Below are positions 10,208-41,597 of a DNA stretch of 64,000 nt, in pieces. The translations under genes were made by a program, and so were the position numbers. The notes under the pieces are model-generated. The model saw nothing but the letters and a program-made list of their open reading frames with translations. It ran no database searches and was not told the origin of the DNA. This DNA comes from Halovivax asiaticus JCM 14624 (lineage in GTDB: Archaea; Halobacteriota; Halobacteria; Halobacteriales; Natrialbaceae). How positions within the stretch are numbered: position 1 is the stretch's first letter; each line of letters begins with the position of its first letter. The stretch is taken from assembly GCF_000337515.1 (NCBI RefSeq), contig NZ_AOIQ01000014.1:108903-172902 (forward strand), in the 5' to 3' direction.

Positions 10208-11815
10208 TTATGCCTGCGAACTCTCAAGCGGGATCTCGATCAACGCGAGCTCGTCCGAAGGCACCGCCTCCGCGAACGCCGATTCGACCTCGTCCCACGT
10301 CCCGGGCCGATACGCCTCGATACCGAAGCTCTCCGAGAAGGCCACGAAGTCGGGGTTTCCCAGCCCCGTTCCGGTGGACGTGCCGCGATGGTCGACCTGC
10401 TTTTCGGAGATCAGGCCGTAATCGTCGTCGGTGAAGACGACGACCGTGAAGCCGCAGTCGAGTCGCGTCGCCGTCTCGAGTTCCGCGGCGTTCATGAGAA
10501 AGCCGCCGTCGCCGGTCGCGGCGACGACGTTCGCGTCGAGGGCACGATCGGCAGCGAGCGCGCCGGGAACGGCGATACCCATGCTCGCCAGGCCGTTCGA
10601 GACGATGCAGGTGTTCGGCTCGTAGGTGGGAAACGCCTGCGCGATCGCCATCTTGTGACTGCCCACGTCCGAGACGAGCACGTCGTCGTCGGCCATCGCC
10701 TCGCGCAGGAGCGGGAGGGCGTTCCGGACGGTGATCGGATCATCCGCGACGGGCGGCGACGTGGCCTGTGCGAGGATGCGATCGTGACGGTCCGCACACC
10801 ACAGCGAGTGTGCCTCTGCCGGAATCCGCTCGCCGACGGCCTCGAGGGCGGCGCCGACGTCCGCGACGAGTTCGACGTCGGGCGTGTAGTGGCGATACAC
10901 CTCCGCCGGTTCGTGGTCGACGTGGACGATCGCGGTGTCGAGGTCCGGATTCCACACTTGCGGGTCGTGCTCGGCGATGTCGTAGCCCACCGCGATCACG
11001 CAATCGGCGCGTTCGATCGCCCGCTCGGCCTCTCCCTCCGGTCCGGAATCGAGCGTCATCAGCGAGGCCGGGTCGCGATCCGAGATCGCGCCCTTGCCCA
11101 TGTAGGTGGCGACGACGGGGAGGTCGAGGTGGTCGACGAAGTTGCGGAGGTGGTCCGCCGCCCGGGTCCTGACGGCGCCGTTGCCCGCGAGGACGATCGG
11201 TCGATCGGCGGCGTCGATCACGGACGCGGCTCGCTCGACGGACGCGTCGTCCGGGTCTGGGCGGCGAACCTGCTCCGATTCGAAGATCGGCGTCGCGTCG
11301 ACCGACCCCCCTTCGACCGCCTCGGCGGCGACGTCCTCCGGTAGTTCCAGGTGCGTCGCGCCCGGCTTCTCGTACTCGGCGAGCTTGAACGCCTTGCGGA
11401 CCGACTCGGGGACGGTTTCCGGCGCCGCGATCTGGGCGTTCCAGGTGACGACGGGTTCGAAGACGTCGACCACGTCCAGCGCCTGGTGGCTCTCCTTGTG
11501 CAAGCGTTCGCGCCCGCCCTGGCCGGTGATCGCGACGAGGGGGCTCTTGTCGAGTTCCGCGTCGGCGACACCCGTGATGAGGTTGGTCGCACCGGGACCG
11601 AGCGTCGCGAGGCAAACGCCGGCCTCGCCGGTCACCCGGCCGTGGACGTTAGCCATGAACGCCCCACCCTGTTCGTGTCTGGTAGGGACGAACTCGATCG
11701 ACGACGCCCGGAGCGAGAACAGCAGGTCCTCCACCTCCTCGCCTGGAACGCCGTAGACCGTCTCGACGCCCTCGGCTTCGAGACAGGCGACGAGGAGATC
11801 CGACGCGGAGGTCAC
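10208..11815 (-). CDS. ThDP-dependent enzyme, acetolactate synthase large-subunit-like
   Basis: A 535-residue thiamin-diphosphate enzyme. The N-terminal Pyr domain has YGVPGEEVEDLL and the catalytic glutamate E48 (PTRHEQGGAFMANVHGR), then GVCLATLGPGATNL and SPLVAITGQGG. The central domain has a Rossmann-like PIVLAGNGAV. The PP domain has GDGGFLMNAAELETA, the start of the ThDP/Mg motif. Such proteins make acetolactate from pyruvate or use related 2-oxo acids. No small regulatory subunit (ilvN) lies beside it, so a catabolic role or other substrate is possible. The GTG at 11815 gives the usual (M)TSASDLLV start; the frame to 12001 is Pro/Arg-rich and probably untranslated. Confidence 0.8.
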   Translation of the reverse strand: MTSASDLLVACLEAEGVETVYGVPGEEVEDLLFSLRASSIEFVPTRHEQGGAFMANVHGRVTGEAGVCLATLGPGATNLITGVADAELDKSPLVAITGQGGRERLHKESHQALDVVDVFEPVVTWNAQIAAPETVPESVRKAFKLAEYEKPGATHLELPEDVAAEAVEGGSVDATPIFESEQVRRPDPDDASVERAASVIDAADRPIVLAGNGAVRTRAADHLRNFVDHLDLPVVATYMGKGAISDRDPASLMTLDSGPEGEAERAIERADCVIAVGYDIAEHDPQVWNPDLDTAIVHVDHEPAEVYRHYTPDVELVADVGAALEAVGERIPAEAHSLWCADRHDRILAQATSPPVADDPITVRNALPLLREAMADDDVLVSDVGSHKMAIAQAFPTYEPNTCIVSNGLASMGIAVPGALAADRALDANVVAATGDGGFLMNAAELETATRLDCGFTVVVFTDDDYGLISEKQVDHRGTSTGTGLGNPDFVAFSESFGIEAYRPGTWDEVESAFAEAVPSDELALIEIPLESSQA

Positions 11816-12085
11816 ACTCGCCACCCCCGGTCCGGGCCCCGTTCGGCGCGTCTCGCGCGCCGGTCGGGGCACGTTCGAAGGCGTCTCACTCGCGATGGCA
11901 CAGGGCCGTGGGTCGCCGATTTGCTGAGCGCCATGGTTGGGTGTCGACGAGCGCACGCAGAGCGGGACGCCGACGGCCCCACGTAGGGCCGGTGAGGCCA
12001 AAAGTGTCGGGCGGAATTCGTTCGGTAGCGAGAAACCCGTCGACGACGGAAACGGCGCCGGTCCGCGGGAACTAATTCAGTAGAT

Positions 12086-12255
12086 TCAGGCCTCGGTGGC
12101 CTCCAGAACGCCCTGGGGGATCCACAGCGCCTGTAGAAGAGGTGCCTCGGGCAGTAAAACCAGACGGGGTTCGAAACCCATCGTACGGGTAGTCAGTTCT
12201 CTCGGTGCGGACAGCGGCCCCTCGTTGATCCGTGGCAACGACCCGGCCGAGCCCG
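12086..12255 (-). pseudogene. Decayed 3' end of a second pdhB (E1-beta) gene
   Basis: The minus strand ending at 12086 encodes QALWIPQGVLEATEA followed by a stop, matching the C-terminus QALRIREGVLEAVEA of the intact pdhB that ends at 22076. Over the last 49 bases I count about 7 mismatches. Homology continues upstream, with VVAT matching VVAT, but in another frame, so at least one frameshift separates the blocks; it fades near 12255. There is no start codon or catalytic region. It lies in the same orientation as intact pdhB and marks the left edge of the RiPP island. Confidence 0.75.
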
Positions 12256-12552
12256 GGCAATGGATACGGCTGCCACCCTCCCCAACGGACCCTTAGACAG
12301 TTCCGGTCCGACCAAAATTACGAACGACGTTCCAACGGCTGGATCGAGTGACGTTCACAAGGAGCTGGGGCGCAATACGAGACTCTCTGTAGAATGTCAT
12401 AGATCAAGAACTGATGGCCGATGTCTTACTGCAAAGACACCAAAAAAATTATAGCAACAGAACGCCCGAATTCGGACGTAATCGAAGCGGGCCAGCAAAC
12501 CATCCCACGTCATCGATCAGACGTGATAGATGACGTTCGGTCGCAATACCCA
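12256..12552. other. Left boundary of the RiPP island and promoter of the first ABC operon
   Basis: This region is more AT-rich than the sequence to its left. A TATA-like AATTATAG lies at 12447-12454, about 100 bp before the chosen start. The frame of the ABC ATPase is open from 12421, but residues before 12553 are not typical of the family. No other gene is seen. Confidence 0.45.
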
Positions 12553-13602
12553 ATGAACGAAATCGAATCAGCCACGGACGACGAACACGAGTCGGCTCCG
12601 TCCGTAGCGGCCGACGTGGCGACGAACTCGCCGGTTTCCGGAGATCCTGCGCTCACGGTTCGCAACCTCGAGAAAACGTACGATTCGGGTGAGAACGCCG
12701 TCCACGCAGTCGACGACGTTTCCTTCTCGGTCGAACACGGGTCGGTCGTCGGGTTGCTCGGGCCGAACGGTGCGGGCAAAACGACGATCATCAAGTCCGT
12801 TCTCGGCCTCGTGACCCCGGACGCTGGTGACATCCTCGTCGATGGAATCGGTATCGACGAACGGCGGAGCGCCCGGTACGATCGCGTCGGCGCGACGCTC
12901 GAAGGCGCCCGGAACATCTACTGGAAACTCTCGGTGCGCGAGAACATGGAGTTTTTCGCGAGCCTGCAGGGAATTCATCCGAAGACGGCCCGTGACCGAC
13001 ACGACGCGTACCTGGAACTGCTCGATCTTGCGGATCGAGCTTCGACACCCGTCAACGAACTTTCGCGTGGCATGAAACAGAAGGCGTCTATCGCGTGCGT
13101 ACTAGCGCGCGAACCGTCGATCCTGTTTCTCGACGAGCCGACACTCGGACTCGACGTGCGTGCATCCGAAATCCTCAGCGCCGAACTCCTGCGACTCTCG
13201 GGCGACGAAGGGAAGACCGTCGTTATCAGCAGCCACGACATGGACGTCATCCAGGAGGTCTGCGATCGCGTCATCATCCTCCACGACGGACGCGTCATCT
13301 CCGACAGCTCCGTCGACGAGTTGATCGACCTGTTCCAGACGAAGGCCTACCAGGTGGCAGTGACGATCGACGACCCCGACGAGCTCCACGAGCATCTCGC
13401 ACCGAGATACGACATTAGCGACTGGACGGTCACCGATCGAACGGTTTCGTTCGAAGTCACCGTCCCGGACGGAGAACGCCTCTACGATCTGATTGGAGAC
13501 CTGCAAACGACCGGTGCCGTTCCGGTCTCGATCGAGGACGTCGAACCGGACATGAAAGACGCGTATCTCCACCTCACCGAAACGACGGAGGAACGACCGT
13601 GA
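12553..13602 (+). CDS. ABC exporter ATPase (pair 1)
   Basis: A 349-residue ATPase. After an acidic about 30-residue N-terminus comes the nucleotide-binding domain: Walker A GPNGAGKTT, a signature-like LSRGMKQKASIACVLA, Walker B SILFLDEPTLGLD and switch His in VVISSHDMDVI. A C-terminal about 90-residue regulatory extension follows, as in CcmA/drug-exporter types. The next gene, a permease, starts in its stop codon (GTGA overlap), so they form one exporter. It opens the island that also holds the azol(in)e RiPP genes, so export of, or immunity to, the modified peptide is the likely job (inference from position). Confidence 0.85.
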   Translation: MNEIESATDDEHESAPSVAADVATNSPVSGDPALTVRNLEKTYDSGENAVHAVDDVSFSVEHGSVVGLLGPNGAGKTTIIKSVLGLVTPDAGDILVDGIGIDERRSARYDRVGATLEGARNIYWKLSVRENMEFFASLQGIHPKTARDRHDAYLELLDLADRASTPVNELSRGMKQKASIACVLAREPSILFLDEPTLGLDVRASEILSAELLRLSGDEGKTVVISSHDMDVIQEVCDRVIILHDGRVISDSSVDELIDLFQTKAYQVAVTIDDPDELHEHLAPRYDISDWTVTDRTVSFEVTVPDGERLYDLIGDLQTTGAVPVSIEDVEPDMKDAYLHLTETTEERP

Positions 13603-14378
13603 ATCCGAACGCCAGCTACGTCCTCTTGCGCGCCCAGGTACGGAAACGGATCGCACTGTTGAAGAGATATCCATTCAACACCGTCTCACAGATCGCGACT
13701 ATCTACGTGTTCTTTCTCATCATCTTCTTCGCCGGGAACGCGTTCAGCCAGTTTGCCATCACCGACCACCTCGAGGGGATCATCGTGGGCTACTTTTACT
13801 GGACGATGGCCGTCGGAGCCTATCAGTCCTACACCGGGAGCCTCATCGACGAGGCCCAGTGGGGAACGCTCGAGCAGCTGTTCATGTCCCGATACAGTTT
13901 CGGTGCGATCAACGCCACCATTATCATCGTGTTCATCCTGGAGACGTTCGTCTGGGGCGGGATAATACTGGTACTAATGGTCCTGACGACGGGTGTGACC
14001 CTTCACATCGATCTGCTGACGATCGTGCCGATTCTGGTGTTATCGCTGTCCGGTCCGATCGCCATCAGCCTGATACTCGGCGGGCTCGCGTTACTGTTCA
14101 AACGCGTCGAGAACATCTTCACGATCGTTCAGTTCCTCTTCGTCGGCCTCATCGCGGCACCCGTCGACTCGTTCCCGTGGCTAAAGTGGCTCCCGATCTC
14201 CCTCGGGAGCGCGCTCCTCCAACGGTCGATGGAGGGCGGCGAACGACTCTACGAGCTTCCCGCCGCCGACCTCGCACTGCTGGTAGGCCAGTCCATCGCG
14301 TTTCTCGCCATCGGGTACGCGATCTTCATCGCACTCCTCAACCGCGCCCGCAAGAAAGGCGTCATGGGCCACTACTGA
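13599..14378 (+). CDS. ABC-2-type exporter permease (pair 1)
   Basis: A 259-residue integral membrane protein with six predicted helices (first near residues 28-48, last near 231-250). The short cytoplasmic loop YTGSLIDEAQWGTLEQLFMSRYSF is the ABC-2 coupling element seen in drug and bacteriocin exporters. It starts with GTG overlapping the ATPase stop by four bases. With the upstream ATPase it should form an ATP-driven exporter. Its G+C is lower than in flanking core genes, as across the island. Confidence 0.85.
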   Translation: MNPNASYVLLRAQVRKRIALLKRYPFNTVSQIATIYVFFLIIFFAGNAFSQFAITDHLEGIIVGYFYWTMAVGAYQSYTGSLIDEAQWGTLEQLFMSRYSFGAINATIIIVFILETFVWGGIILVLMVLTTGVTLHIDLLTIVPILVLSLSGPIAISLILGGLALLFKRVENIFTIVQFLFVGLIAAPVDSFPWLKWLPISLGSALLQRSMEGGERLYELPAADLALLVGQSIAFLAIGYAIFIALLNRARKKGVMGHY

Positions 14379-14435
14379 GACTGTCGTCCTGCACTCGTTC
14401 CTGCGGTGGGCAGAGTTGCGAACGCTGCGCGATTC

Positions 14436-14633
14436 TCACACCGAGATGTATCGTTGCAGACGAAGGTAGCCAACGCCGAGAACTGAGAGACAGAGAATAA
14501 CGACGCCTGCGTCGAACGCGTACTCGACGACCCGGGACTGGCCGACGAATCGCTCCCAGAGACGGAGTCCCAACAGCCCGATGGCTGCGTAGACGATAAT
14601 GGCGAACAGCTGGTCGTCGGTGATGGGTGGCAT
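14436..14633 (-). CDS. Small two-helix membrane protein
   Basis: A 65-residue protein with hydrophobic helices at about 8-24 and 42-58 and a short polar linker (ERFVGQSRVVEYAFDAG). It lies on the opposite strand between the two ABC pairs of the RiPP island. Small membrane proteins in such clusters can give immunity, but nothing in its sequence proves that, and I recognise no family. The ATG at 14633 is the only start that keeps the first helix whole. Confidence 0.55.
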   Translation of the reverse strand: MPPITDDQLFAIIVYAAIGLLGLRLWERFVGQSRVVEYAFDAGVVILCLSVLGVGYLRLQRYISV

Positions 14634-14660
14634 GCTGGTAATTATATCCCCCGAACACCA

Positions 14661-14804
14661 TTATTTTTGGGTTCCTGTCGAGAAGGTGTAGTCGGCCGTG
14701 TCCGTGGCTGATAGCTCGCATACAGCCTGTCCGGTCAGGTTCGGGGTCACAGCGCCTGGCCCGGACCGGGTGATTGTGGCCCAGTTTCCGTACCTCTTCT
14801 CCGA
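14661..14804 (-). other. Coding-like remnant without a start
   Basis: The minus-strand frame ending at 14661 reads YGNWATITRSGPGAVTP... and ends DTADYTFSTGTQK-stop. The composition resembles the C-terminus of a beta-rich exported protein, but no start codon exists near it and the hydrophobic or catalytic part is absent. Probably a fragment left by rearrangement; the family is not recognised. Confidence 0.3.
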
Positions 14805-14807
14805 TGG

Positions 14808-14820
14808 ATAAATATATATC
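14808..14820 (+). promoter_or_regulatory. TATA box of the second ABC operon
   Basis: ATAAATATATATC lies about 40 bp before the ATG at 14856 and only 3 bp before the other in-frame ATG at 14823. Transcription starting about 25 bp downstream would begin after 14823, so 14856 is the usable start. AGGAG at 14848-14852 is a ribosome-binding site close to it. Confidence 0.65.
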
Positions 14821-14855
14821 CGATGAGAAGCTCTGATAACATTACGCAGGAGATA

Positions 14856-15728
14856 ATGTCGGTAAACACAGACACAACCGGCGACCGACGGCGGATTCGA
14901 CAGGTCCACTCGTTCTTTACCCGACACCTTCTGGAGATAACGCGCAACCGCACCGCGCTGTTCTGGTCGTTCGGGTTCCCCACACTCTTCTACCTGATGA
15001 CGATCACCGTTTTCATCGATCTGGATCAGGTTCCATCGGCAGTGGAACCCGCGGTGATGGGGATCGTTGCCATCGGATACGGGGTTTTCGGTGCCGTCAT
15101 CGTCTGTCTGAACGCGTTTGGCCAGCAACTCGCCGACGACATCGAGCAGCGACGGTATTCGGCGTTTCGAGCGTTGCCACTCAGTCCCTCCGCGGATTTC
15201 ATCGGTCGATCGTGTGCGAGTATCCTGATGGCTGCGATCGCATTTTGTTTCGTGCTGGTCGTGAGCGTCCTGACGGGCGCATCCTACAGTCTCTCTTCGC
15301 TCTCGGCGCTTCCCATCGTCGTCGGCGCCTTTCTGCTGAGTAGTCTGATCTGGATCGTCCTCGCGCTGTTTATCGCCGTCATCGCAACGAACGGGCAATA
15401 CGTCAATATCATCTCGCTGAGTATCGCGCTCATCTCGTACTTCGGGACGGGATTCAACGGCACGGCGCCGTCGTCGTTCGCCGGCGATCTCTCGCTCCTG
15501 AACTACCTGCCGAATTCACTGGCCACGCGCGTGCTGTCCTACCACATGGTCGAGATCGATCCCGAACCCGCCGACGGGGCGCCCTGGGAAGCGGCCGGAA
15601 TGGTGCCACCGGAGATGCCCGTCGGTCCCGATTACCTCGGCCTCCTGGCCCTCTACGCGGTCGTCTTCCTGACGGCGGGGTTACTCGCGATGCGGTACTC
15701 GATGTACAAGCGAGGTGCGTGGGAATGA
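14856..15728 (+). CDS. ABC-2-type exporter permease (pair 2)
   Basis: A 290-residue membrane protein with six helices. The RQVHSFFTRHLLEITRNRTALFWSFGFP N-terminal amphipathic segment and first helix are typical of the DrrB/ABC-2 permease family. The loop QQLADDIEQRRYSAFRALPLSP is the coupling helix region. The TATA box and RBS favour the start at 14856. The ATPase gene that follows overlaps it by ATGA. In this pair the permease comes first, the reverse of pair 1, and the sequences are not similar, so the two exporters are separate acquisitions and not a duplication. Confidence 0.8.
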   Translation: MSVNTDTTGDRRRIRQVHSFFTRHLLEITRNRTALFWSFGFPTLFYLMTITVFIDLDQVPSAVEPAVMGIVAIGYGVFGAVIVCLNAFGQQLADDIEQRRYSAFRALPLSPSADFIGRSCASILMAAIAFCFVLVVSVLTGASYSLSSLSALPIVVGAFLLSSLIWIVLALFIAVIATNGQYVNIISLSIALISYFGTGFNGTAPSSFAGDLSLLNYLPNSLATRVLSYHMVEIDPEPADGAPWEAAGMVPPEMPVGPDYLGLLALYAVVFLTAGLLAMRYSMYKRGAWE

Positions 15729-16618
15729 CGGCGTTGCTCGATGCGACCGGCATCACGAAACGGTTCGACGGTACGGGGGTCGTTCTCGACGACGTCGATG
15801 TTGCCGTCGAAGAGGGCGAGATACTGGCGGTTCTCGGCCCGAACGGCGCAGGAAAGACCATCATGATGTCGATCCTCGCCGGAAGCGAACCGCCCAGCGA
15901 TGGCGCGGTTTCCCTCGACGGCAGACCGATCCAGTCCAGTTCGATCGACGTGAGTTTCCTGCTTCAGAACACGATGGCTATCGACACGCTCACGGGCCGA
16001 GAGAACATCACGTTCTACTCGAGGCTGCATCCGCAATTTACGGCTCGGTGGGAGGAGTACGCCGAGGCGTTCGAGATCGTCGACGATCTCGACACGCCCG
16101 TCGGCGAGTATTCGGGCGGAATGCGTCGAAAACTCGAACTCGTGATAGCACTCAGCATCGACGCGACCATCTACTTCCTCGACGAACCGACCGCCGCACT
16201 CGACATGGCCATGGTGCAGAAGTTGCACAGTATTATTCGTTCGCTTCGGTCGGATGGAGCCACGTTCGTCGTTTCGAGCCACCTGCCGTCCGACATCGAA
16301 GTCGCGGACCGACTGCTGTTCCTGCGCGACGGGCAGATTACCTCGACCGGCGACACCGAGACGCTGCTCGCGGAGCTGCCATCGGTGGTCCGGATTCCCG
16401 AGGTCGCACTCTCGGAAGCGCTTCGATCGAACCTCGTCGATGGACGGACGTTCGACGATGGGGAACAGGTGCGAGGATTCGTGTCTCCCGATTCGACCGT
16501 CGAAGCGATCGCCGAGGCCAGTTGCGACGGTGGAGCTGGCGCCGTGAGTTCGATCGAAACCGTCGATCCGACGCTCACCGACCTCTTTAACTATTACTCA
16601 CAGAGCCGCCGACCGTAA
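15725..16618 (+). CDS. ABC exporter ATPase (pair 2)
   Basis: A 297-residue ATPase: Walker A GPNGAGKT, signature YSGGMRRKLELVIAL, Walker B TIYFLDEPTAALD, switch His in FVVSSHLPSDIEVA. A C-terminal extension of about 90 residues ends FNYYSQSRRP. Start ATG at 15725 overlaps the permease stop by four bases. DrrA-type ATPases of this size commonly power drug and RiPP export or self-protection, which fits the island. Confidence 0.85.
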   Translation: MTALLDATGITKRFDGTGVVLDDVDVAVEEGEILAVLGPNGAGKTIMMSILAGSEPPSDGAVSLDGRPIQSSSIDVSFLLQNTMAIDTLTGRENITFYSRLHPQFTARWEEYAEAFEIVDDLDTPVGEYSGGMRRKLELVIALSIDATIYFLDEPTAALDMAMVQKLHSIIRSLRSDGATFVVSSHLPSDIEVADRLLFLRDGQITSTGDTETLLAELPSVVRIPEVALSEALRSNLVDGRTFDDGEQVRGFVSPDSTVEAIAEASCDGGAGAVSSIETVDPTLTDLFNYYSQSRRP

Positions 16619-17246
16619 TCACCGTACGGCGGACCCATCGATCGCCGACTGCGCCGTCTTTCGGTGGGCCGGTCTCGGACTGCACTCGACGGACGAGACC
16701 GGTTACACCCACCGTGATCAGCGCCGAGGGAGACGAGCGGACGAAAATGTCCGCGCGATCAGGTCGAGGGCCACCGAACACAGTTTCGTGGCGATCCACG
16801 AGCGATGCGAGTCAGGTGGGCCAGCACGGCAGTCGGGCTGCGAAACTCCCACACGGTAAACGCCCTCCGCGATTCCGAGAGGGGGCCGGCGTCTCGACCT
16901 GCTCAGAAAGGCTGGAGAAAGTACGTACGGGATTCGAACGGTGCGTGGTCCAGATTGGCTGTTCTGTGCAGCGAGACATCGTCCCATCAGTTCCGCCACG
17001 GTAGTGTGTTCATCCCAAGCCGCCGCGTTAGCTCGTGTCTCGTCTCATCCGCCAAGCTGTACGGTTCCAGCAGTCACGTTGTGGAGTTCGGCCAGACTGA
17101 ACCGAGCAGTCTTGTCGAATAATATTTGCTGAATACCACCACAAATTACTTATATCTGAATTTATACTGTTACGACGATGATTGGAATGCAAGTAGTATC
17201 AGTTCACAGGGGAAGAAAGGGGGATCCTTTCTAGGAGTTGGTGGTG
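16619..17246. other. 628-bp gap before the RiPP modification operon
   Basis: No protein gene is convincing: the overlapping frames at 16718-17132 lack domains and haloarchaeal acidity. The left part is GC-rich and the last 120 bp strongly AT-rich, where the operon promoter lies. At about 16925-17005 the minus strand has a weak tRNA-Leu resemblance (GTGGCGGAACTG, GCTG/CAGC hairpin with CAG in its loop, TTCGAAT), but acceptor and T stems do not pair. Confidence 0.4.
17149..17166 (+). promoter_or_regulatory. TATA-like promoter of the sagB-sagC-ycaO operon
   Basis: Two AT-rich elements, CTTATATC at 17149 and TTTATA at 17161, lie 80-100 bp before the sagB start. They imply a leader of about 50-70 nt containing AGGAG at 17233-17237, nine bases from the ATG at 17247. 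Confidence 0.5.
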
Positions 17247-18161
17247 ATGGAAATTGACGTAAATTCCCTACGGAAACTCCGTAGCCAGGGATACGAACCG
17301 TCGCAACTCCGGATGGACGAATCGTATCTCGACGAGTTCGTCGCAAAGGAGTTCCGGGGTGAACACCTCGCCGAACTGTTTCACGAAAACACGAAGTACA
17401 GCGACAAAACGAACCTCAAACTGGGTCCGTCCGCCGCAGCCTTCACGAAGAATCCGAGCTATGCGTACATGCAAGCGCAACTGTCGCCGGACTACGACGG
17501 GTACGAAACGATCAACCTGCCGGAGCCCGATTCGCTCGGGGGGTCGTTCACCGAGGCCATCGAACGACGGCGAAGCGTCCGAGAACAGGCGGGCGAATCG
17601 CTCTCACTGTCGCAACTCTCGACGCTGCTCAAGCATAGCTGCGGCGTCAGTGCCGAACGGCCCATCGGCGAGGAGGGAACGGTACTGCAGGAGTTCCGGT
17701 CGTACGCCTCGGGCGGAGCACTCTACCCGGTCGAGATCTACCTCGCTGTCGTACACGGTGACGACGACCTCGATCGTGGGCTCTACTACTACGTCCCTGA
17801 CGACCACGAGTTGCGCGTGCTCAATCGTGACGACGAACTACCGGACCGAATGGACGACCTGTTCGCGCTGTCCGAGGACGTCTTCGATCCCGCCACGTCG
17901 TCCATTGTCTTCATGCTCACCGGGGCGTTCTGGCGTTCGATGGCGAAGTACGGTCCACGCGGCTATCGATACATTCTCCAGGAGTCCGGGCATCTCGGAC
18001 AGAACATCCTGCTTTCCGCCGCAGCGATGGGGCTGGTTTCCCTTCCGGTGGCCGCATTCAAGGACGACTCGGTAAACGAGTATCTCGACGTAGACGGCGT
18101 CAACGAAGCGGTCGTTTACACACTCTGTGTCGGTCACGGGGCCGACGGTGAAAACCAATGA
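17247..18161 (+). CDS. sagB: SagB-type azoline dehydrogenase of the RiPP cluster
   Basis: A 304-residue FMN-dependent nitroreductase-fold protein of the SagB/ThcOx family. Visible elements are ERRRSVREQAG (FMN phosphate contact), YASGGALYPVEIYLAV and ILQESGHLGQNILLSAAAMGL, all in family order. In azol(in)e RiPP pathways this enzyme oxidises thiazolines and oxazolines to thiazoles and oxazoles. In-frame TTG and GTG codons lie just upstream; the ATG at 17247 is chosen because AGGAG sits nine bases before it. Its stop overlaps the C-protein start by ATGA, so it is the first gene of a translationally coupled operon. Confidence 0.9.
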   Translation: MEIDVNSLRKLRSQGYEPSQLRMDESYLDEFVAKEFRGEHLAELFHENTKYSDKTNLKLGPSAAAFTKNPSYAYMQAQLSPDYDGYETINLPEPDSLGGSFTEAIERRRSVREQAGESLSLSQLSTLLKHSCGVSAERPIGEEGTVLQEFRSYASGGALYPVEIYLAVVHGDDDLDRGLYYYVPDDHELRVLNRDDELPDRMDDLFALSEDVFDPATSSIVFMLTGAFWRSMAKYGPRGYRYILQESGHLGQNILLSAAAMGLVSLPVAAFKDDSVNEYLDVDGVNEAVVYTLCVGHGADGENQ

Positions 18162-19243
18162 CTGACGATAGCAACGACACCGAGACGATCGAACAGGTGC
18201 GCGAGGAACTCGAACGGCCGGTCTTCAACCCGCAACTCGTCCCGGTCATGCTGGACGACAACACCATTCACGTTCGAGCGGGACCGTGGTCCGGGCCGAT
18301 TTACACGATCTCGGACATCGACGAGGACGACGACATCGGCGCTCTCTTCGATCTCATCGACGGGGAGACGCACATCGACGAGATATTTGCGGCGTTCGAA
18401 GCGGATCAACGATCCGAGGTCGCCGACGTGCTCTACGCGCTGGCGGATAGCAACGCTATCTACGATGCCGACGCGGTAGACGGGCCGATGTACTCACATC
18501 TGGTACTGAAATCCCGGTTCAGAGAGCGAGAGCGACGACGACTCGAAGAACAGTCCATCCTCATCGTCGACGATAGTCGAATGGGCGCACACGTCGCGGA
18601 AGACGTGCTCGCGATGGGAGTGGCGGCGGTCGGGTACGCGGGGCTCGATGGCCAGCAGCTCCCGGCAGCGGGTAGTGACGACGATCGCCTCACCGCCGTC
18701 ACCGAAGACGAACTGCCCGGCGCGGTCGACGACGCGGATTTCGTCGCGTACCTGGCCGACGGCCCGTCGAAGACGATCCGGGACGTCAACGAGTACGCGA
18801 TCGAGACGGGGACGCCGTGGATCGTCGGACAGATTCGTGGGTTCGACGGAATCGTCGGACCGGCGATGTTCCCGGGCGAAACGGCCTGTTACGAGTGTTT
18901 TCATCGACGGATGCTCTCGAACGTCTCGAACATCGGCGGCTACGAAACCTTCGAGACGGAACGGGAGGATTCGGACGTTGCAACGGCCAGTCTGCCGATG
19001 TTTTCTCGCACGGTAGCCGGGCACCTGTCGCTCGACCTGTTGCATCTGCTGGCGTTCGGTGTCGGATACACGGCCGGGCGGGTCCTCACGATCAATTCCC
19101 TCAACCTGGCGATGGAGGTCAACGAGGTGCTGAAACTTCCGCGATGTGGGGCCTGCGGTCGTGATCCATCACCGGACGTCTCCCGGTTCATTACGCTCGA
19201 CGACATGGTACTCGGGAGTCGACAGTCGGCGGGGGACGATTGA
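18158..19243 (+). CDS. sagC: ThiF-like leader-binding C protein of the cyclodehydratase (SagC-type)
   Basis: A 361-residue protein. Residues about 20-110 (FNPQLVPVMLDDNTIHVRAG onward to LADSNAIY) look like a PqqD-type RiPP recognition element that binds the precursor leader. The rest is a degenerate E1/ThiF fold starting near SILIVDDSRMGAHV, where active E1 enzymes have a glycine-rich ATP loop, so it should not adenylate by itself. Two CxxC pairs, C244/C247 (ACYECF) and C330/C333 (RCGACG), form the structural zinc site of the family. It presents the precursor to the YcaO enzyme. It overlaps sagB by four bases; 34 bp separate it from ycaO. Confidence 0.85.
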   Translation: MTDDSNDTETIEQVREELERPVFNPQLVPVMLDDNTIHVRAGPWSGPIYTISDIDEDDDIGALFDLIDGETHIDEIFAAFEADQRSEVADVLYALADSNAIYDADAVDGPMYSHLVLKSRFRERERRRLEEQSILIVDDSRMGAHVAEDVLAMGVAAVGYAGLDGQQLPAAGSDDDRLTAVTEDELPGAVDDADFVAYLADGPSKTIRDVNEYAIETGTPWIVGQIRGFDGIVGPAMFPGETACYECFHRRMLSNVSNIGGYETFETEREDSDVATASLPMFSRTVAGHLSLDLLHLLAFGVGYTAGRVLTINSLNLAMEVNEVLKLPRCGACGRDPSPDVSRFITLDDMVLGSRQSAGDD

Positions 19244-19277
19244 CGATGCTGATCGCACCAGGGGAGGTGAGCGATCG

Positions 19278-20558
19278 ATGAGCGGAGACGGGCGAGCGGT
19301 CGTCGATCCCCAGTACCAGCGACTGATCGGCAAGAAAACCGGACTCATCAATTCCCTCTACGGCCTCCAACAGAGCCGGGGACAGCCCGAGGCGTCGCTG
19401 AGCCAACCGATCACGGCGAGCGTGGGGTGGCTCGCGGAGGCCGATGGCGAACTCGAGCTGGCACTCGGGGGCAAAGGCCAGACCCTCGAGAGTTCGTACC
19501 TGAGCGCCATCGGGGAGACCGTCGAACGGTATTCGCTCTGTTTTCCCGAGCCGGACGACTTCGTCACTGCGAGCTACGACGAGCTCGCTGCACGTGAGGC
19601 GGTCATCGACTTCGAGTATCTCGACATCTACAGCGAGGCCATCAGAGACGAGCGGCTCGCGCCGCTCACGCACGAAACCGAGATCAGCTGGACCGCGGGA
19701 ACGCACCTCATCACTGGCGAAGCCGTCTACGTTCCGGTCCAGCTGGTGTGGATGCAGTTCGGACCGGACTATCACGAACACCCGCGGTTCCTCGGAACCT
19801 CGAACGGGGCCGCGGCGGGATCGTCGTTGACGAACGCGTTGCTCGGCTCGCTCTACGAACTCATCGAGCGGGACGCGTTTATGAAGATGTGGTGCAGACA
19901 AGAGACGCCGGATCGCGTCGACCTCTCGTCGATGCCGGACGTCCGGGCGTTCGTCGACGAACGCATCCCACAGGAACACATCTCGGTCCAGCCGGTCGTC
20001 TACGACTCGCCGCTCGCGATGACGTCGGTCGGGGGTGCACTGATCAACGAGCGGGACGAGCGGCCGAAGTTCATCCTCGGCGGAAATACGTCGGTCTCTC
20101 CCGCGGAGGCGGTTCGTGGTGCGATCGTCGAGAGCATCCAGGGACTGCCGTTCATCGCAGAGATCGCGATGAACCACGATCCGTCGGAGCTCGATCCCGG
20201 GCACGCCGAGGACAATTTCGAGGAGAACGTCCTCTACTACGCGCTACCGGAGAACTTCGACGAGGTCGCGTTCATCGTCGACGGCGATCACGAAACCCGC
20301 CCGACCGATCGAGAGACGAGCGGCTGGGACAAGCGAGACGAACTCGACTACTGTCTCGAAGAACTCGATCGGGTCGGATACACGCCGATCGGATTCGATG
20401 TAACGACGCCCGACGTCGCTCGCGCCGGGCCGCGGGTAACGAAGGTGATCGTGCCGGAGCTCGTCCCGATTACGCCGCCGGGAACCCTCCCGGTGAATCA
20501 TCCGGCCTTCGACGGCGAACGAGACGAGCTGACCGCCAAACCGCATCCCTACGCCTGA
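19278..20558 (+). CDS. sagD: YcaO cyclodehydratase (SagD-type)
   Basis: A 426-residue YcaO enzyme, which uses ATP to close Cys, Ser and Thr side chains onto the preceding amide to give azolines. ATP/Mg motifs are SAIGETVERYS, NALLGSLYELIERDAF and, later, AVRGAIVESIQG. Azoline-forming YcaO proteins usually end in PxPxP; this one ends AKPHPYA, with only part of that motif, so its activity needs checking. GGGGAGGTGA at 19261-19270, eight bases before the ATG, is a strong ribosome-binding site and decides the start over the frame open from 19146. It needs the C protein upstream to find its substrate. Confidence 0.88.
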   Translation: MSGDGRAVVDPQYQRLIGKKTGLINSLYGLQQSRGQPEASLSQPITASVGWLAEADGELELALGGKGQTLESSYLSAIGETVERYSLCFPEPDDFVTASYDELAAREAVIDFEYLDIYSEAIRDERLAPLTHETEISWTAGTHLITGEAVYVPVQLVWMQFGPDYHEHPRFLGTSNGAAAGSSLTNALLGSLYELIERDAFMKMWCRQETPDRVDLSSMPDVRAFVDERIPQEHISVQPVVYDSPLAMTSVGGALINERDERPKFILGGNTSVSPAEAVRGAIVESIQGLPFIAEIAMNHDPSELDPGHAEDNFEENVLYYALPENFDEVAFIVDGDHETRPTDRETSGWDKRDELDYCLEELDRVGYTPIGFDVTTPDVARAGPRVTKVIVPELVPITPPGTLPVNHPAFDGERDELTAKPHPYA

Positions 20559-20663
20559 CGGCGATCCGGTCGCTTCTCGGTGTTCCACTGCCTATCTACG
20601 TCCCGGCCGGTTTCGCTATCAGTGGCGATCGCGCGTCTTCGATCGCGGGGTTCCCGTCGAACC

Positions 20664-21299
20664 CTATCCGTGGACGGTCGGAAAGCGGACGCCGCCGGCG
20701 ACGAACGAGACGTACGCGACGTTGTAGCCAACGTGTGCGAGGACGGGTGCGAGGAGCGAACCGGTCGCCAGAAAACAGAGGGCGTAGACGATGCCGTTGA
20801 CGGATTTGAAGACGATCTCGCTCCGGCCCTTGGAAAAGTGGTTGATTCCGAAGAGCACACCGGAGAGCACCACGTACCAGATCGTTCCGATGCTGGCTAT
20901 CAGGACCGCGAGCACACCACGGTAGAGATACTCCTCGCCGATCGCTCCGAATACGATCGGGAGCTTCCATACCGTCTCCTCGGTCCCTCGCTCGATCGGC
21001 ACACCGACCCACCACGACCAGACGAAGATGTCGAGTGCGTACATCGCCACGCCCAGTGGGAGAAAGACGACGAACCAGCCGTCGACGGGAATGGGAACGG
21101 ACGTCACGTCGCTGATGTAAAACGCGGCCGATGCAATCACGATGAACGGGAGATACAATACGTCGTCGTGTTTCGGCCGGTACTCGTATCCGGCGGCGGT
21201 TGCACTGCCGATAACCACCGAGAAGTACCCGACGAGCAACAGCGGGAACCCGAGGAACACGTGTACCCACGTCGGCGCGGGAGAGGGGTCTAACGCCAT
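20664..21299 (-). CDS. sagE: CPBP/CAAX-type intramembrane protease of the RiPP cluster (SagE-like)
   Basis: A 211-residue membrane protein with about seven helices. The CPBP/Abi motifs are complete: E122-E123-x3-R127 (GEEYLYRG), H154 (FGINHF) and H189-x3-N193 (LAHVGYN). In streptolysin-S-type clusters SagE belongs to this family and is proposed to cut the leader or give immunity. It is convergent with ycaO and on the same strand as the precursor gene, whose stop is 245 bp upstream of this start. ATG at 21299 is preferred; the frame to 21371 adds a non-conserved basic/Cys segment. Confidence 0.85.
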   Translation of the reverse strand: MALDPSPAPTWVHVFLGFPLLLVGYFSVVIGSATAAGYEYRPKHDDVLYLPFIVIASAAFYISDVTSVPIPVDGWFVVFLPLGVAMYALDIFVWSWWVGVPIERGTEETVWKLPIVFGAIGEEYLYRGVLAVLIASIGTIWYVVLSGVLFGINHFSKGRSEIVFKSVNGIVYALCFLATGSLLAPVLAHVGYNVAYVSFVAGGVRFPTVHG

Positions 21300-21472
21300 G
21301 TGTGGCAGGTCGTACTCCGTTCGCCCCTCGGAGGGTCCGAAACACCCGACCCGGACGCATCGATGCTGCACGGTCCCCCCGTTGTTCCCGACTCGCTTTC
21401 AGTGCCAGCACTCCCCGACGTGGCGAAGCGGTTCGTGGTCGCCTGCCTCCGTTTGGTTCCTGTCATCCGATC

Positions 21473-21477
21473 AAAAA
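21473..21477 (-). terminator. Possible T-tract terminator after the precursor gene
   Basis: On the minus strand a TTTTT run follows the precursor stop by about 70 bases, before the protease gene. Archaeal termination can use short T tracts alone. If used, it would let the precursor be transcribed at higher level than the protease. Weak evidence. Confidence 0.3.
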
Positions 21478-21544
21478 TGGGGTGCAGTTCGCTGGGCGCC
21501 CGTCGAGCCCGCGTGCGACCAGTCCGTGGCAACCGAATAGCCAA

Positions 21545-21661
21545 CTACCCCGTCCACGTACACGTACACGTCGTCGTGTAGCTACTGCACGTACACCAAC
21601 CGCCGCTGGAGACGGCGGCCGCGCTGTCATCACTGGATTCGTCCGTTAGTTCTACGTCCAT
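21545..21661 (-). CDS. sagA: Azol(in)e RiPP (TOMM) precursor peptide
   Basis: A 38-codon gene on the minus strand. Residues 1-21 are an acidic leader (MDVELTDESSDD, then Ala/Ser) ending in Gly-Gly. Residues 22-38 are WCTCSSYTTTCTCTWTG: four Cys, seven Thr and two Ser in 17 residues, exactly what a SagBCD synthetase modifies. Cys is rare elsewhere in these proteins, so the run is not composition noise. It has its own TATA box (21696-21704), a start 12 or so bases from the predicted transcript start, and a palindrome between them. It sits 1 kb from ycaO, upstream of the protease on the same strand. The product has not been recognised by me as any named peptide; modification sites and cleavage after GG are inference. 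Confidence 0.85.
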   Translation of the reverse strand: MDVELTDESSDDSAAAVSSGGWCTCSSYTTTCTCTWTG

Positions 21662-21674
21662 GGTGTGTTACACC
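21662..21674 (-). promoter_or_regulatory. Inverted repeat at the precursor start (candidate operator)
   Basis: GGTGT-GTT-ACACC, a perfect 5-bp inverted repeat, abuts the precursor ATG and covers the predicted transcription start. A second GGTGTAA half-site lies about 20 bp farther upstream (about 21687-21693). A bound regulator here would block initiation. No regulator gene lies in the island. Confidence 0.5.
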
Positions 21675-22075
21675 AAACTATCTTTTTTACACCCGATTAT
21701 ATTAACGTTTCGACGGTTCTTCCTGGTGTCACCCTCGACGGGGAACCGCGACGACCCCCGATTCACCACGGCCGGTTGAATGGCGACTCGAATCGCTGAT
21801 CCTCGTCGATGACGGCCCGTGTATTCGCCCTCGATTTCGAAATAACGACGAGAGACCGGATGGAGACGGTACGCTCGAACGACCGTCACTCCCGAGTTAT
21901 GGGTCCGCCGACCGCCGGTTTGCCGTGCGTACCGGAAGGTCGTCGACGAGGTCGCACAAAGCAGAATCGACAGTTCCGCGTAAAGCGGGTGAGGGCAACG
22001 GTACGGACGGAATTCGTTCGGTTGCGCGACCGGCGGCGATGGGAGAGGGTCGCCGGAACGGACCGGAGAAACGCA
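21675..22075. other. Precursor promoter and right edge of the RiPP island
   Basis: Minus-strand TATA-like AATATAAT lies near 21696-21704, placing transcription start about 25 bp nearer the precursor gene. From there to the pdhB stop at 22076 I see no supported gene; overlapping frames are arginine-rich shadows. G+C rises to core-genome level near pdhB. Confidence 0.5.
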
Positions 22076-23161
22076 TCAGGCCTCGACGGCTTCCAGCACG
22101 CCCTCGCGGATCCGCAGCGCCTGCGGGAGGTAAAAGTCTTCGAGCGTGGAGAGCGGGACTGGCGCGTCGAAGCCCGTCACGCGAGTGACCGGCGCCTCCA
22201 GGTAGTACAGCGCCTCCTCGTTGATCGTGGCGACGACCTCGGCCCCCACGCCGGCGGTCTTCGGGGCCTCGTGGACGACGGCTGCGCGGCCCGTCTTCTG
22301 TACCGATTCGGCGATCGTGTCGATGTCGAGCGGCGAGAGGCTGCGGAGGTCGACGACCTCGACGTCGATCCCGTTCTCCGCGGCGAGGTCCTCGGCGACG
22401 GCGAGGGCGGGCTGGGTGCTCGCCCCCCAGGTGAACAGCGAGACGTCCTCGCCCTCGCGGCGAACCGACGCCTCGCCGATCGGGACGGTGTAGGGCTCCT
22501 CGGGAACGTCCTCGCGAAACGCACGGTAGAGGCGCTTCGGTTCGAGGACGATCACGGGGTCCGGGTCGCGGACCGCGGCGGCGATGAGCCCCTTCGCGTC
22601 GGTCGGTGTACTCGGCGTGACGACCTTGAGGCCGGGTTCGTGGACCAGTGCGGCCTCTCTGGACTCGGAGTGGTGCTCCGGCGCCGCGATGCCACCGCCG
22701 TAGGGCATGCGGACGACCATCGGGAGCGTGAACTGGCCGTGACTGCGGCTGCGCATCGCGGCGGCGTGACTCACCAGCTGGTCGTACGCCGGCGAGGCGA
22801 AGCCCATGAACTGCATCTCCGCGACCGGGCGCATCCCCGAGAGGGCCAGGCCGATCGAGGAGCCGACGATCGCCGACTCGGCCAGCGGCGTGTCGATCAC
22901 GCGATTCGGGCCGAACTCGTCTTGTAAGTGCTCCGTCGCGCGGAAGACGCCGCCGTTGGTGCCGACGTCCTCGCCGAGGACGACCACGCTGTCGTCGCGG
23001 GCCAGTTCCAGTTCGAGGCCGTCGCGGACCCCCTCGACGAGCGAGAGCGACTCGGTGGGGCCGTCGTAGGCGTCGAGATCGATCGTATCGGTCGCCACGT
23101 CGGATTCCTGATCGACCGCGTCGTCGCCGGCCGATTCGAGTCCGTCGGCAGCCGTACTCAT
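22076..23161 (-). CDS. pdhB: 2-oxoacid dehydrogenase E1 beta subunit (pyruvate dehydrogenase type)
   Basis: A 361-residue transketolase-fold subunit. After an acidic about 35-residue N-terminus, SLVEGVRDGLELELARD, VVVLGEDVGTNGGVFRAT, RVIDTPLAESAIVGSSIGLA and MPYGGG are the usual E1-beta blocks, and VEVVDLRSLSPLD starts the C-terminal domain. With E1 alpha it forms the ThDP-dependent alpha2beta2 decarboxylase of a 2-oxoacid dehydrogenase complex. It overlaps pdhA by ATGA. No E2 or E3 gene follows here; instead the RiPP island begins, with a decayed copy of this gene's 3' end at the island's far side. Confidence 0.9.
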   Translation of the reverse strand: MSTAADGLESAGDDAVDQESDVATDTIDLDAYDGPTESLSLVEGVRDGLELELARDDSVVVLGEDVGTNGGVFRATEHLQDEFGPNRVIDTPLAESAIVGSSIGLALSGMRPVAEMQFMGFASPAYDQLVSHAAAMRSRSHGQFTLPMVVRMPYGGGIAAPEHHSESREAALVHEPGLKVVTPSTPTDAKGLIAAAVRDPDPVIVLEPKRLYRAFREDVPEEPYTVPIGEASVRREGEDVSLFTWGASTQPALAVAEDLAAENGIDVEVVDLRSLSPLDIDTIAESVQKTGRAAVVHEAPKTAGVGAEVVATINEEALYYLEAPVTRVTGFDAPVPLSTLEDFYLPQALRIREGVLEAVEA

Positions 23162-39834: not shown

Positions 39835-40047
39835 CTCAGAGGAGCTAGCGATTGAATCAACTTGGACTTTGTGCAGCGAGAGTAGACACGGCGCGAACTG
39901 ATGGCGCCGGATATTCGCCTCCATTTGGGCGATTTTTCACTTTCGAATACCATTCAAGAACTAGAGAAACACGGTGGCGAACGGAATTGAAAATCCGTCC
40001 AAGTCTGCGTTCACAATTACGTTAATCGTCCGAAGACCCCACTATAA
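39817..40047 (+). pseudogene. Dead IS6-like transposase, N-terminal part
   Basis: One frame reads LKTATLRGASD-stop-INLDFVQRE-stop-TRRELMAPDIRLHLGDFSLSNTIQELEKHGGER and on to a terminal stop. The pattern L-x-G-x-SD, I-x-L-x-FVxRE, LM, I-x-LHL, SLSNT, LE-x2-G-x-ER is that of N-termini of haloarchaeal IS6-family transposases. Three internal stops and loss of the DDE catalytic region mean it cannot make an active enzyme. It shows that insertion sequences once occupied this region. Confidence 0.6.
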
Positions 40048-40182
40048 TGTTCCCGGGCTTCCAAACAGATCGGCTTTGCATTATATCACATTATACACTA
40101 TGATTTCTAAGAGGTGATGTGACCACCCCTGCCAAATCAGCTAATGAGAAGGTGAACCAAAATATTTTAAATAATTTTATTT
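40048..40182. other. AT-rich non-coding sequence
   Basis: Very AT-rich 135 bp including AATATTTTAAATAATTTTAT near 40161, which follows the stop of the gene on the opposite strand and could act as its T-tract terminator (minus strand). Nothing else seen. Confidence 0.4.
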
Positions 40183-41364
40183 TTAACTAACCTGGGCGAC
40201 AGGGAGCTCAAATGTTTTTTCAATCTCTTCATTCATATATATTATTCCAGGATCCCGCCCAGGTGTTTCTCCATCATAGTACCATCCATGACTAACAATC
40301 CATCGGAACTCTTTAGTGGAGTTACTGGTACTTGTATCCACGGTCCACCAAACCCCACGATTTGTATCCTGTTCATCTGGAAAAGAGTGCATATCAAAAT
40401 CCCACTCCGAGTGAGAATGATTGTACTGGAAGTCAGTATGGCTGGTGTCTAAATTGATCGAAATGGATGGACCGACCGAGATTGTTCCCGCGCCAAACGG
40501 TTTTCCAATACCTATACTAAAAGAATAAGTTGATCCGTCGTCATTATTGGGTCGTTCTGAGAGGAACATAATATCCGGGTCTTCAGTGTCCTCATCACTA
40601 CCAGGTGTACATGTCACATAATATTCTGAACTGTGCTCCCAGATATTGGTGCTTCCATCATCAGGAGATGGGGTTTTCATAAAATATGATTGGAGATTCC
40701 AGCGATTAAAAGTGTCGTTGGGGAGTTGATCATGGTTGTATCGATCATCGCTATCGTCTCCAGTGAGATAGGCAATCCATTTCCAGCCATCAGAATCAAA
40801 TTTATTCCCATAGTCCCGTCTTATCGTCCAATTTATATCCTTATAATCACCGGCCGCAGCCCCGGTTGCGTTCTTACTACGATATCCGAGTTTTTCGCTT
40901 GGGCGTGGGTTATACTCGTCTTCATTTGTTATTGTTTCTCGCCTTTTTGGCTGTGCCGAGTAAAGGAACTCAGCAAGTCGTCTATTGGCATCATCAGGCT
41001 GTAGCACAAACGCCGTCCGCTCCATCGATGGGGTCCTAATACATCCTGATATGCATGAGCCTCGGATACCCAAAACAATCTTCTGAGCGGGTTGTTTCCT
41101 GTCCTGTTGTCGGAATTCAATATAAGAGCGTAAATTCCGCCCGCGCTTATGAAGGTCTTGGGATGGTTTCATCTTATGTAAGGAGAACGTCTGAACTCGA
41201 GATGAGTTCGTCGAATCCTCAACCTCGATTTCTGCTATCAATTCTTCCCCATCAATTTCAACAGTACCAGTTGCTAAGCCCATGATTTCGACTGTATTCG
41301 GATCGTACGAATACCCGTGGAAGCTAGAACTAGATCTCACAGAACCGACCGCAGGATTAGTCAC
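40183..41364 (-). CDS. Exported protein of unknown function, AT-rich, start uncertain
   Basis: A frame of 393 codons from GTG at 41364. G+C is far below the genome norm, with many AT-ending codons. The protein is polar with many aromatic residues and a beta-rich C-terminal half (YSFSIGIGKPFGAGTISVGP, SINLDTSHTDFQYNHSHSEW). In the same frame the sequence upstream of 41364 reads NIDRRSALRKLAVTSATGVL, a Tat-like signal, back to an ATA codon at 41463 in the position where ATG would be expected (VRQATKNIDRRS...). No ATG, GTG or TTG lies between that region and the upstream stop. So either an unusual start is used or the gene has lost its start. Family not recognised. Confidence 0.6.
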   Translation of the reverse strand: MTNPAVGSVRSSSSFHGYSYDPNTVEIMGLATGTVEIDGEELIAEIEVEDSTNSSRVQTFSLHKMKPSQDLHKRGRNLRSYIEFRQQDRKQPAQKIVLGIRGSCISGCIRTPSMERTAFVLQPDDANRRLAEFLYSAQPKRRETITNEDEYNPRPSEKLGYRSKNATGAAAGDYKDINWTIRRDYGNKFDSDGWKWIAYLTGDDSDDRYNHDQLPNDTFNRWNLQSYFMKTPSPDDGSTNIWEHSSEYYVTCTPGSDEDTEDPDIMFLSERPNNDDGSTYSFSIGIGKPFGAGTISVGPSISINLDTSHTDFQYNHSHSEWDFDMHSFPDEQDTNRGVWWTVDTSTSNSTKEFRWIVSHGWYYDGETPGRDPGIIYMNEEIEKTFELPVAQVS

Positions 41365-41597
41365 TAAGCTGGTTCCTGATGTTAAGACCCCGGTTGCTGA
41401 TGTGACAGCGAGTTTTCTGAGGGCACTTCTTCGGTCAATGTTCTTGGTTGCTTGTCGAACTATACAGAAACATAGAGACGGATTTTAATAATCTTATCCA
41501 TTATTCTCAACTTTTAAAATAATAAATAGCAAATAAACAAATTTATTTTTTATGGAGGAGTTAGGGAGAGAGACTAGTTTCAAAAAATACATTTATA
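41365..41597. other. Tat-signal extension and AT-rich spacer
   Basis: Positions 41365-41463 (minus) encode the Tat-like extension described for the neighbouring gene. From about 41500 to 41597 the sequence is almost wholly A+T with minus-strand TATTTATTATTTT-like elements suitable as promoter. No other gene. Confidence 0.45.

Follow-up and report, generated by a model that had tools for sequence, protein, structure and literature searches.

The stretch of DNA analysed here (the window) covers 64,000 nucleotides of contig NZ_AOIQ01000014.1 of Halovivax asiaticus JCM 14624, and in it a short open reading frame (ORF) of 38 residues lies on the minus strand beside genes resembling sagB, sagC and ycaO. 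An earlier note had read this ORF as the precursor gene of a modified azol(in)e peptide; its minus-strand frame, coordinates and sequence, MDVELTDESSDDSAAAVSSGG followed by WCTCSSYTTTCTCTWTG, are exactly as given there. From the sequence and from structure models, we consider it very probable that the ORF encodes the precursor of a linear azol(in)e-containing peptide (LAP, or thiazole/oxazole-modified microcin, TOMM) and is a haloarchaeal counterpart of sagA. The ORF, its two parts and the genes closest to it are the following.

21545 to 21661, minus strand: predicted precursor peptide gene (sagA equivalent), 38 residues, ATG start, sequence MDVELTDESSDDSAAAVSSGGWCTCSSYTTTCTCTWTG.
21599 to 21661, minus strand: acidic leader MDVELTDESSDDSAAAVSSGG, predicted ligand of the N-terminal domain of SagC; its start pattern and Gly are common to other clusters.
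21548 to 21598, minus strand: core WCTCSSYTTTCTCTWTG, predicted site of azol(in)e formation; 13 of 17 residues are Cys, Ser or Thr (C/S/T), and the first 15 are identical in P0004 (see below).
17247 to 18161, plus strand: sagB-like flavin mononucleotide (FMN) azoline dehydrogenase (TIGR03605, 140.7 bits against a cut-off of 78.4).
18158 to 19243, plus strand: sagC-like E1-like partner with an N-terminal RRE-like domain, 361 residues (TIGR03882, above cut-off).
19278 to 20558, plus strand: ycaO, SagD-like cyclodehydratase, 426 residues (PF02624, E 2.8e-65; TIGR03604, 219.7 against a cut-off of 219.25).
20664 to 21299, minus strand: CPBP (Rce1-like) intramembrane protease gene (PF02517), its frame open to a GTG at 21371, co-directional with the precursor.

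The start of sagC overlaps the end of sagB (18158 against 18161). The neighbours that the earlier note had named, sagB, sagC, ycaO and a CPBP protease gene, are supported by the matches to TIGR03605, TIGR03882, TIGR03604 and PF02517. TIGR03882 stands for 'TOMM precursor leader peptide-binding protein', and NCBI gives this TOMM-related name to the C protein; the enzymes had therefore been recognised beforehand. What we describe is probably a new haloarchaeal family of the known LAP/TOMM kind.

The final 17 residues of the ORF include four Cys, seven Thr and two Ser; the mean Cys content of the seven cluster proteins is 0.7%. Among the 219 short ORFs of the window (ATG start, 25-80 residues) it is alone in having at least 13 C/S/T in the last 17 residues, and alone in having at least four Cys there. 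When the window was shuffled 200 times by dinucleotides, no ORF with at least 13 C/S/T appeared, nor any with four Cys plus at least ten C/S/T; with no C/S/T condition, ORFs with at least four Cys were present in 16 of the 200 shuffles. By the criteria of the scan for Cys-rich short ORFs, no second one exists between positions 9501 and 31500 of the window.

In a sister species (G003) the ORF is identical at 116 of 117 bases; the single change is synonymous and the peptide is identical. The corresponding identity is 83.7% for the 49 bases upstream, 98.0% for the CPBP gene and 97.1% for the stretch between precursor and CPBP gene. The ORF is thus the best conserved stretch, and its contrast to the downstream side is small. 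In P0004 (MDIQLTDETDDGASAVGGGGWCTCSSYTTTCTCTWDPR), a more diverged relative from a metagenomic contig, the core is identical at 15 of 15 residues and the leader at 13 of 21 columns (Fisher p=0.0067). The block shared with P0004 extends as far as the second Trp, a hint that the final residues of the peptide form a tail. Two profile searches of 5.8 billion proteins, with the peptide included as a row, gave no entry identical to it, and tblastn of the 38 residues against PLSDB plasmids gave no match. Used alone as query against 100 relatives, the peptide matched just its own and the sister genome below E 0.01; at E<=1 there were 41 genomes, of which the other 39 (best 0.014) resemble chance.

These results bear on the idea that a short TGTACG-type repeat happens to be open in this frame and that the real precursor lies elsewhere. 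The core DNA is indeed partly repetitive, and in some clusters the candidate precursors are kilobases off. However, the shuffles produced no ORF with 13 of 17 C/S/T, G003 retains the whole peptide and P0004 the core, and the region scanned holds no further Cys-rich candidate; a chance reading is in our view extremely unlikely.

Two elements lie near the start of the ORF.

21697 to 21705, minus strand: TATA-like element TTAATATAA, the sole match to TTWWTATAA in the 64 kb, kept in G003.
21661 to 21675, no strand: perfect inverted repeat TGGTGT-N3-ACACCA, abutting the start codon of the precursor.

The former agrees with the TATA box claimed previously, and its nine bases are unchanged in the sister species; the pattern was picked after the site had been seen and is present in three of 100 shuffles. 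The repeat was listed by a terminator-like scan that found two sites against 1.3 expected. Its sole change in G003 falls in the loop, and it is possibly an operator or an RNA hairpin. A scan for bacterial-type promoters gave no match, a result that carries no meaning for archaea.

SagC-like proteins were found at E<=1.9e-46 in 14 of the 391 genomes of the class, and 40 further genomes match weakly (E 1.1e-8 or worse). Counted by family at E<=1e-30, matches occur in 7/125, 7/28, 3/170 and 4/146 genomes, counts that overlap with the former as many of those genomes belong to the 391. Two additional loci are present in the metagenome-assembled genome QS_1_68_20. The genes sagB, sagC and ycaO occur together at all 16 loci of a first set (the window and its sister included) and at all nine of a second set fetched later. 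Organisms bearing the cluster include Haladaptatus cibarius, Natronobiforma cellulositropha (Natronobiforma belongs to the Natrialbaceae), Halomicrobium urmianum, Halorussus gelatinilyticus, Halalkalirubrum salinum and Natronocalculus amylovorans. At locus L084 (G334:C25) an additional YcaO gene, at 13144-14355, lies inside the same cluster region. Locus L151 (G230:C5) holds, at about 12504-16782, a divergent sagC-ycaO-sagB cluster, with all three genes above NCBIfam cut-offs, plus a methyltransferase-like gene; a different small Cys-rich ORF (16621-16782, minus strand) lies just upstream of it.

The enzymes keep their motifs across the loci. In YcaO, GExxER[YF] and ExxER[DH], which we take to be the ATP-binding motifs, are present at 15 of the 15 listed loci, near-identical sister included, and the best solved relatives by sequence are MusD, TruD and LynD. 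The Lys-Tyr motif of SagB, presumably catalytic, is likewise found at all 15, and McbC is among the solved relatives. EExxxR, FxxxH and HxxxN are kept in all 11 cluster copies of the CPBP protein (window and sister included), which was detected near 11/16 first-set and 4/9 second-set loci.

The E1-like domain dominates the VIA list of the whole SagC, and the N-terminal domain was therefore modelled separately and used as a query by itself. Its closest match is the leader-binding (RRE) domain of PbtF, and the top 11 rows of VIA-align are all RRE domains or RRE-bearing enzymes of ribosomally synthesised and post-translationally modified peptides (RiPPs), several of them solved with leader peptide. 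According to the model, SagC would be an E1-like C protein that carries an RRE domain for binding the leader. The locus also has other parts by which a LAP/TOMM is recognised: a YcaO cyclodehydratase, an FMN azoline dehydrogenase (SagB) and, near the enzymes, a small predicted precursor with a leader and a C/S/T-rich core.

The gene set of the sag operon is precursor, dehydrogenase, E1-like partner, YcaO, CPBP protein and ABC exporter. The window shares with sag-type LAPs/TOMMs this whole set, including the predicted RRE of the E1-like partner, and the core rich in Cys, Ser and Thr. Unlike them it is archaeal, and its leader has about 21 residues, six of them acidic. The precursor belongs to no Pfam family, and among the profile-search matches of the protein collection there is no named bacterial precursor. 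The transport genes of the cluster are these.

15719 to 16618, plus strand: ABC exporter ATPase (PF00005), with homologues near part of the related clusters.
14823 to 15728, plus strand: ABC-2 type permease (PF01061).
12421 to 13602, plus strand: second ABC ATPase (ABC ATP-binding families; best TIGR01188, under its cut-off).
13599 to 14378, plus strand: membrane protein, likely a second exporter permease, with homologues near L072, L073, L082, L084, L146 and L148; no Pfam or NCBIfam match at E<=0.001.

At the other loci, candidate precursors within about 5 kb of the enzymes were sought by a blind scan for Cys-rich short ORFs and then by a leader scan. The following were obtained from the first set.

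L073: candidate precursor MKLDITDESERGRNAPVSAGVAGSCSCSHTCTCCCTCSCNSA.
L031: candidate precursor MKLEITDESESTTPATGPGGATCTCSCKTCCCCCCCCAA.
L075: candidate precursor MKFELSEDSKDESVPVSGGRCSSSSSTCCCSPS.
L078: candidate precursor MEFEISDESENSDATEAVAPGSCSCCAGVLPPCCCGT.
L074: candidate precursor MKLEIEHESETGVAPIEGGVSTCTTSTCRGTTTSTTVSTN; L076 is near-identical and L077 similar.
L080: candidate precursor MKVTIDERSSDSTDATESRAGCARSDRSRCGCSRSSRTE.
L083: candidate precursor MEITIEADEQFEDGGGGGGGGSSSSSSSGEID; core without Cys, Gly8Ser7.
L079: candidate precursor MKFKIEDETESTAESTEPVAPGTSNDGFCSKYDMCYFSVPDALGFLS.
L032: two candidate precursors.
L081, L082 and L084: candidate precursors found by looser means.

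Common to the candidates is a leader pattern, M-x-hydrophobic-x-hydrophobic and then acidic residues, and a Gly close to the leader/core boundary is near-invariant among 13 aligned candidates. The cores are hypervariable. More than one candidate occurs in some clusters: three in L079 (one would start with GTG), three in L081 and five in L147, three of which have one leader and differing cores. At NCBI the candidates are annotated as 'hypothetical protein' at best, and the precursors of H. urmianum have no annotation in the gene table of PLSDB, which is itself incomplete. The view that such a gene is too short for gene callers is therefore only partly right, since relatives of 40-47 residues are called.

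The earlier note had held that its proposal would fail if the peptide were not conserved next to related ycaO clusters. On this point the data do not go against it. In addition to the core of P0004, candidate precursors are found near sagBCD at 16/16 first-set loci (14 by the leader rule, L079 by a looser scan, L081 by eye) and at six or seven of the nine second-set loci (two by the leader rule, the others by looser scans, which gave candidates at L143, L144, L147 and L149 and a doubtful one at L150). The leader rule was fixed after the first set had been seen; there it gives 16 hits at 14 of the 16 loci, every one previously picked, and in 239,504 bp of control DNA it gives one hit.

Further, a profile built from 15 first-set candidates was tried on the nine unseen loci (919 ORFs) and on a control set of 1181 ORFs. 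At E<1e-3 it matched at four of the nine (L142, L147, L148, L149), L147 being close to a training row, and the best control was at 0.09. A match at L148 12678-12764 (E 0.014) resembles chance. One control ORF, in L057 (E 1.2), adjoins the divergent sagC-ycaO-sagB cluster noted above for L151, so the controls are not entirely clean. Another profile, A1, was run on the 391 genomes with at most 18 candidates scored per genome. All 11 of its matches at E<=1.4e-4 fall in cluster genomes, 10 of the 14 having at least one, and the other 377 genomes gave none at that level. Training rows or sequences identical to one account for ten of the 11, and the eleventh is an untrained second candidate precursor in G397. 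A profile of six rows, A2, also matched MELTIEETSNGEQTDNESRADCVRSGRSRCGCAR (E 1.7e-5), a precursor-like peptide on a plasmid of H. urmianum, 24 kb from the cluster (NZ_CP084091.1, about 270253-270354; L116 8254-8355), beside tnpA and near a TnpB gene.

A number of observations weigh against reading the window ORF and its relatives as LAP/TOMM precursors. L081, L082 and L084 have leaders only loosely similar to the rest, the cores of L079, L081 and L147 have few Cys, and in L031 and L073 candidates are as far as about 5 kb from the enzymes. At L145 and L146 no candidate was found by the rule or by looser scans. At the nine unseen loci the leader rule gave three hits in two loci (179 kb), all beside enzymes, a count that alone is not convincing. 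In the A1 scan the training row of G004 scored 0.0052, inside the background, where the best non-cluster match is 0.00165. Profile A2 matched at the cluster in one of eight untrained cluster genomes, G397, and weakly (E 0.008), and at E<=0.1 it matched in 6 of 40 non-cluster genomes (best 0.029). With these poor results of A2, the leader similarity among the candidates is short and weak. As to the enzymes, the CPBP protein was undetected at 5/16 and 5/9 loci, and the Foldseek E-values for the N-terminal domain of SagC are weak (best 0.12). Finally, the YcaO of the window ends in PHPYA, as does that of the sister, while PHP[YFI]P is found at 13 of the 15 listed loci.

This replacement of the final Pro by Ala would also fit a decaying or silent island that now makes no product. 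The genes flanking the cluster, as judged by their translations, are an acetolactate-synthase-like gene on one side and one for a branched-chain dehydrogenase E1 on the other; they delimit a slot at about 11815-22080. In two sister genomes, G001 and G004, the same flanks enclose other DNA, and for this reason the cluster is an accessory island. The seven cluster proteins have no tblastn match at E<=1e-3 in the slot of either genome, and G004 has a cluster at another place. The GC of the cluster is 0.59-0.62 in 2-kb windows, lower than in the neighbouring DNA. A tRNA as insertion site was considered and rejected, the window holding no tRNA. Elsewhere, at positions 40001-42000, GC drops to 0.425, the adjacent 2-kb windows being at 0.64-0.65. 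The filled slot in two sister genomes likewise speaks for decay or silence, but the seven cluster proteins are 95-99% identical between two species with frames intact, and the precursor is unchanged. We regard a silent island as very unlikely.

The candidates also bear on what the peptide itself is. With its two CxC motifs it could be a small metal-binding protein, of metallothionein or zinc-finger type, that merely adjoins the cluster, and small CxxC proteins are encoded near L143-L145. However, beside the same enzymes there are candidates whose core has no Cys (Gly8Ser7 in L083) or is rich in Thr and has two Cys, and strong profile matches are confined to cluster genomes. A metal-binding role is very unlikely.

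A closer competitor accepts the peptide as the substrate but holds that just the four Cys, or few residues, are cyclised, giving a sparse thiazol(in)e peptide and no polyazole. Azol(in)e synthetases in general prefer Cys as substrate, and the cores of L079, L081 and L147, with two or three Cys, are poor in Ser and Thr. Set against this, P0004 keeps all Thr and Ser of the core despite its drifted leader, the cores of L074, L076 and L077 are rich in Thr and Ser, and that of L083 has no Cys at all. We hold sparse cyclisation to be a tentative but real possibility.

If the ORF encodes a LAP/TOMM precursor, the acidic leader (DVELTD) would dock on the RRE-like domain of SagC, which would hand the core over to YcaO. 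YcaO with ATP would then cyclodehydrate Cys, Thr and Ser in WCTCSSYTTTCTCTW to thiazolines and (methyl)oxazolines (-18 Da each), and some of these azolines would be oxidised by SagB to azoles (a total of -20 Da per ring). For this 15-residue core the calculated [M+H]+ is 1746.627 when unmodified, 1666.522 with four thiazoles and 1506.312 with twelve azoles. A likely role of the CPBP protein is to cleave after Gly-Gly as leader peptidase, or else to confer immunity, and the ABC proteins would export the product. Each part agrees with the usual scheme of LAP synthesis. The steps from substrate status through leader binding, ring formation and ring number to cleavage and export are what we infer. 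The product would probably serve antagonism or signalling among haloarchaea.

The plantazolicin core is RCTCTTIISSSSTF, with the pattern x-CTC-[TS][TS]-hydrophobic-second block. The window core resembles it in being short and in having two C/T/S blocks separated by hydrophobic residues; it differs in beginning with Trp, not Arg, and in the lengths of the blocks. No methyltransferase family was matched among the cluster proteins scanned. The Trp start and the lack of a plantazolicin-type N-methyltransferase among these proteins rule out membership of that group, and the likeness may be convergent. In plantazolicin a core of 14 residues undergoes ten cyclodehydrations and nine dehydrogenations, according to the part of PMC5100339 that describes it.

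Haloazolisins, as described in the relevant passages of Cox et al. 2015 (PMC4603692), have a fused, N-terminally truncated CD cyclodehydratase and are predicted to be TOMMs of halophilic archaea. The window system is likewise a predicted TOMM of a halophilic archaeon, but by that description it is not a haloazolisin because its YcaO is unfused: C (361 residues) and D (426 residues) are separate proteins, and in 25 of 25 loci compared the SagC match lies apart from the YcaO match. Each of the 14 cluster genomes has elsewhere a second, weakly similar YcaO in a frame of 579-641 residues, which would be of the haloazolisin type. That study also lists 31 haloazolisin precursors and names a precursor close to an 'F-like' protein of Haloterrigena turkmenica, which may be a member of the window family, as may one of those listed. 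A 2023 study (PMC9953058) states, in the text available, that the haloazolisin-type ycaO is present in all haloarchaeal genomes with no clear cluster around it, and questions its role; with this ubiquity, the haloazolisins are in doubt as an archaeal azole family. The proposal of a new archaeal TOMM in the earlier note fits, once corrected on two points: the peptide is part of a wider haloarchaeal family, and it is distinct from the haloazolisins.

Other haloarchaeal RiPPs are the archaeal lanthipeptides, with antagonistic or motility effects in the accounts of PMC12144867 and PMC10105419; they differ in their LanM chemistry, with enzymes unrelated to SagBCD, and Haloferax volcanii H1424, with the vector pTA1228, served as their heterologous host (PMC12144867). 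The string 'azol' is absent from the main text of both papers, and in the former YcaO appears just three times, in general remarks. In the open-licence PMC literature, among the matches listed, there is neither a description of the window precursor family nor a characterised azole RiPP from Archaea.

The weight of the finding lies in the family behind the window peptide, which adds about three dozen candidate precursors as possible new chemistry. We lean, with some reserve, towards the view that haloarchaea have a true, fast-diversifying azole-peptide family, with discrete SagBCD, a short acidic leader and one to five precursors per cluster, whose cores would range from Cys8 runs and the plantazolicin-like WCTCSSYTTTCTCTW to Gly8Ser7 and hydrophobic peptides with two Cys. 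The window peptide would then be the first archaeal polyazole natural product, for warfare or signalling at saturating salt. It would also offer a case for leader recognition with an acidic leader at molar salt. Since discrete synthetase and candidate precursor genes co-occur, a single co-expression experiment could now address the question of thiazole/oxazole peptide synthesis in archaea.
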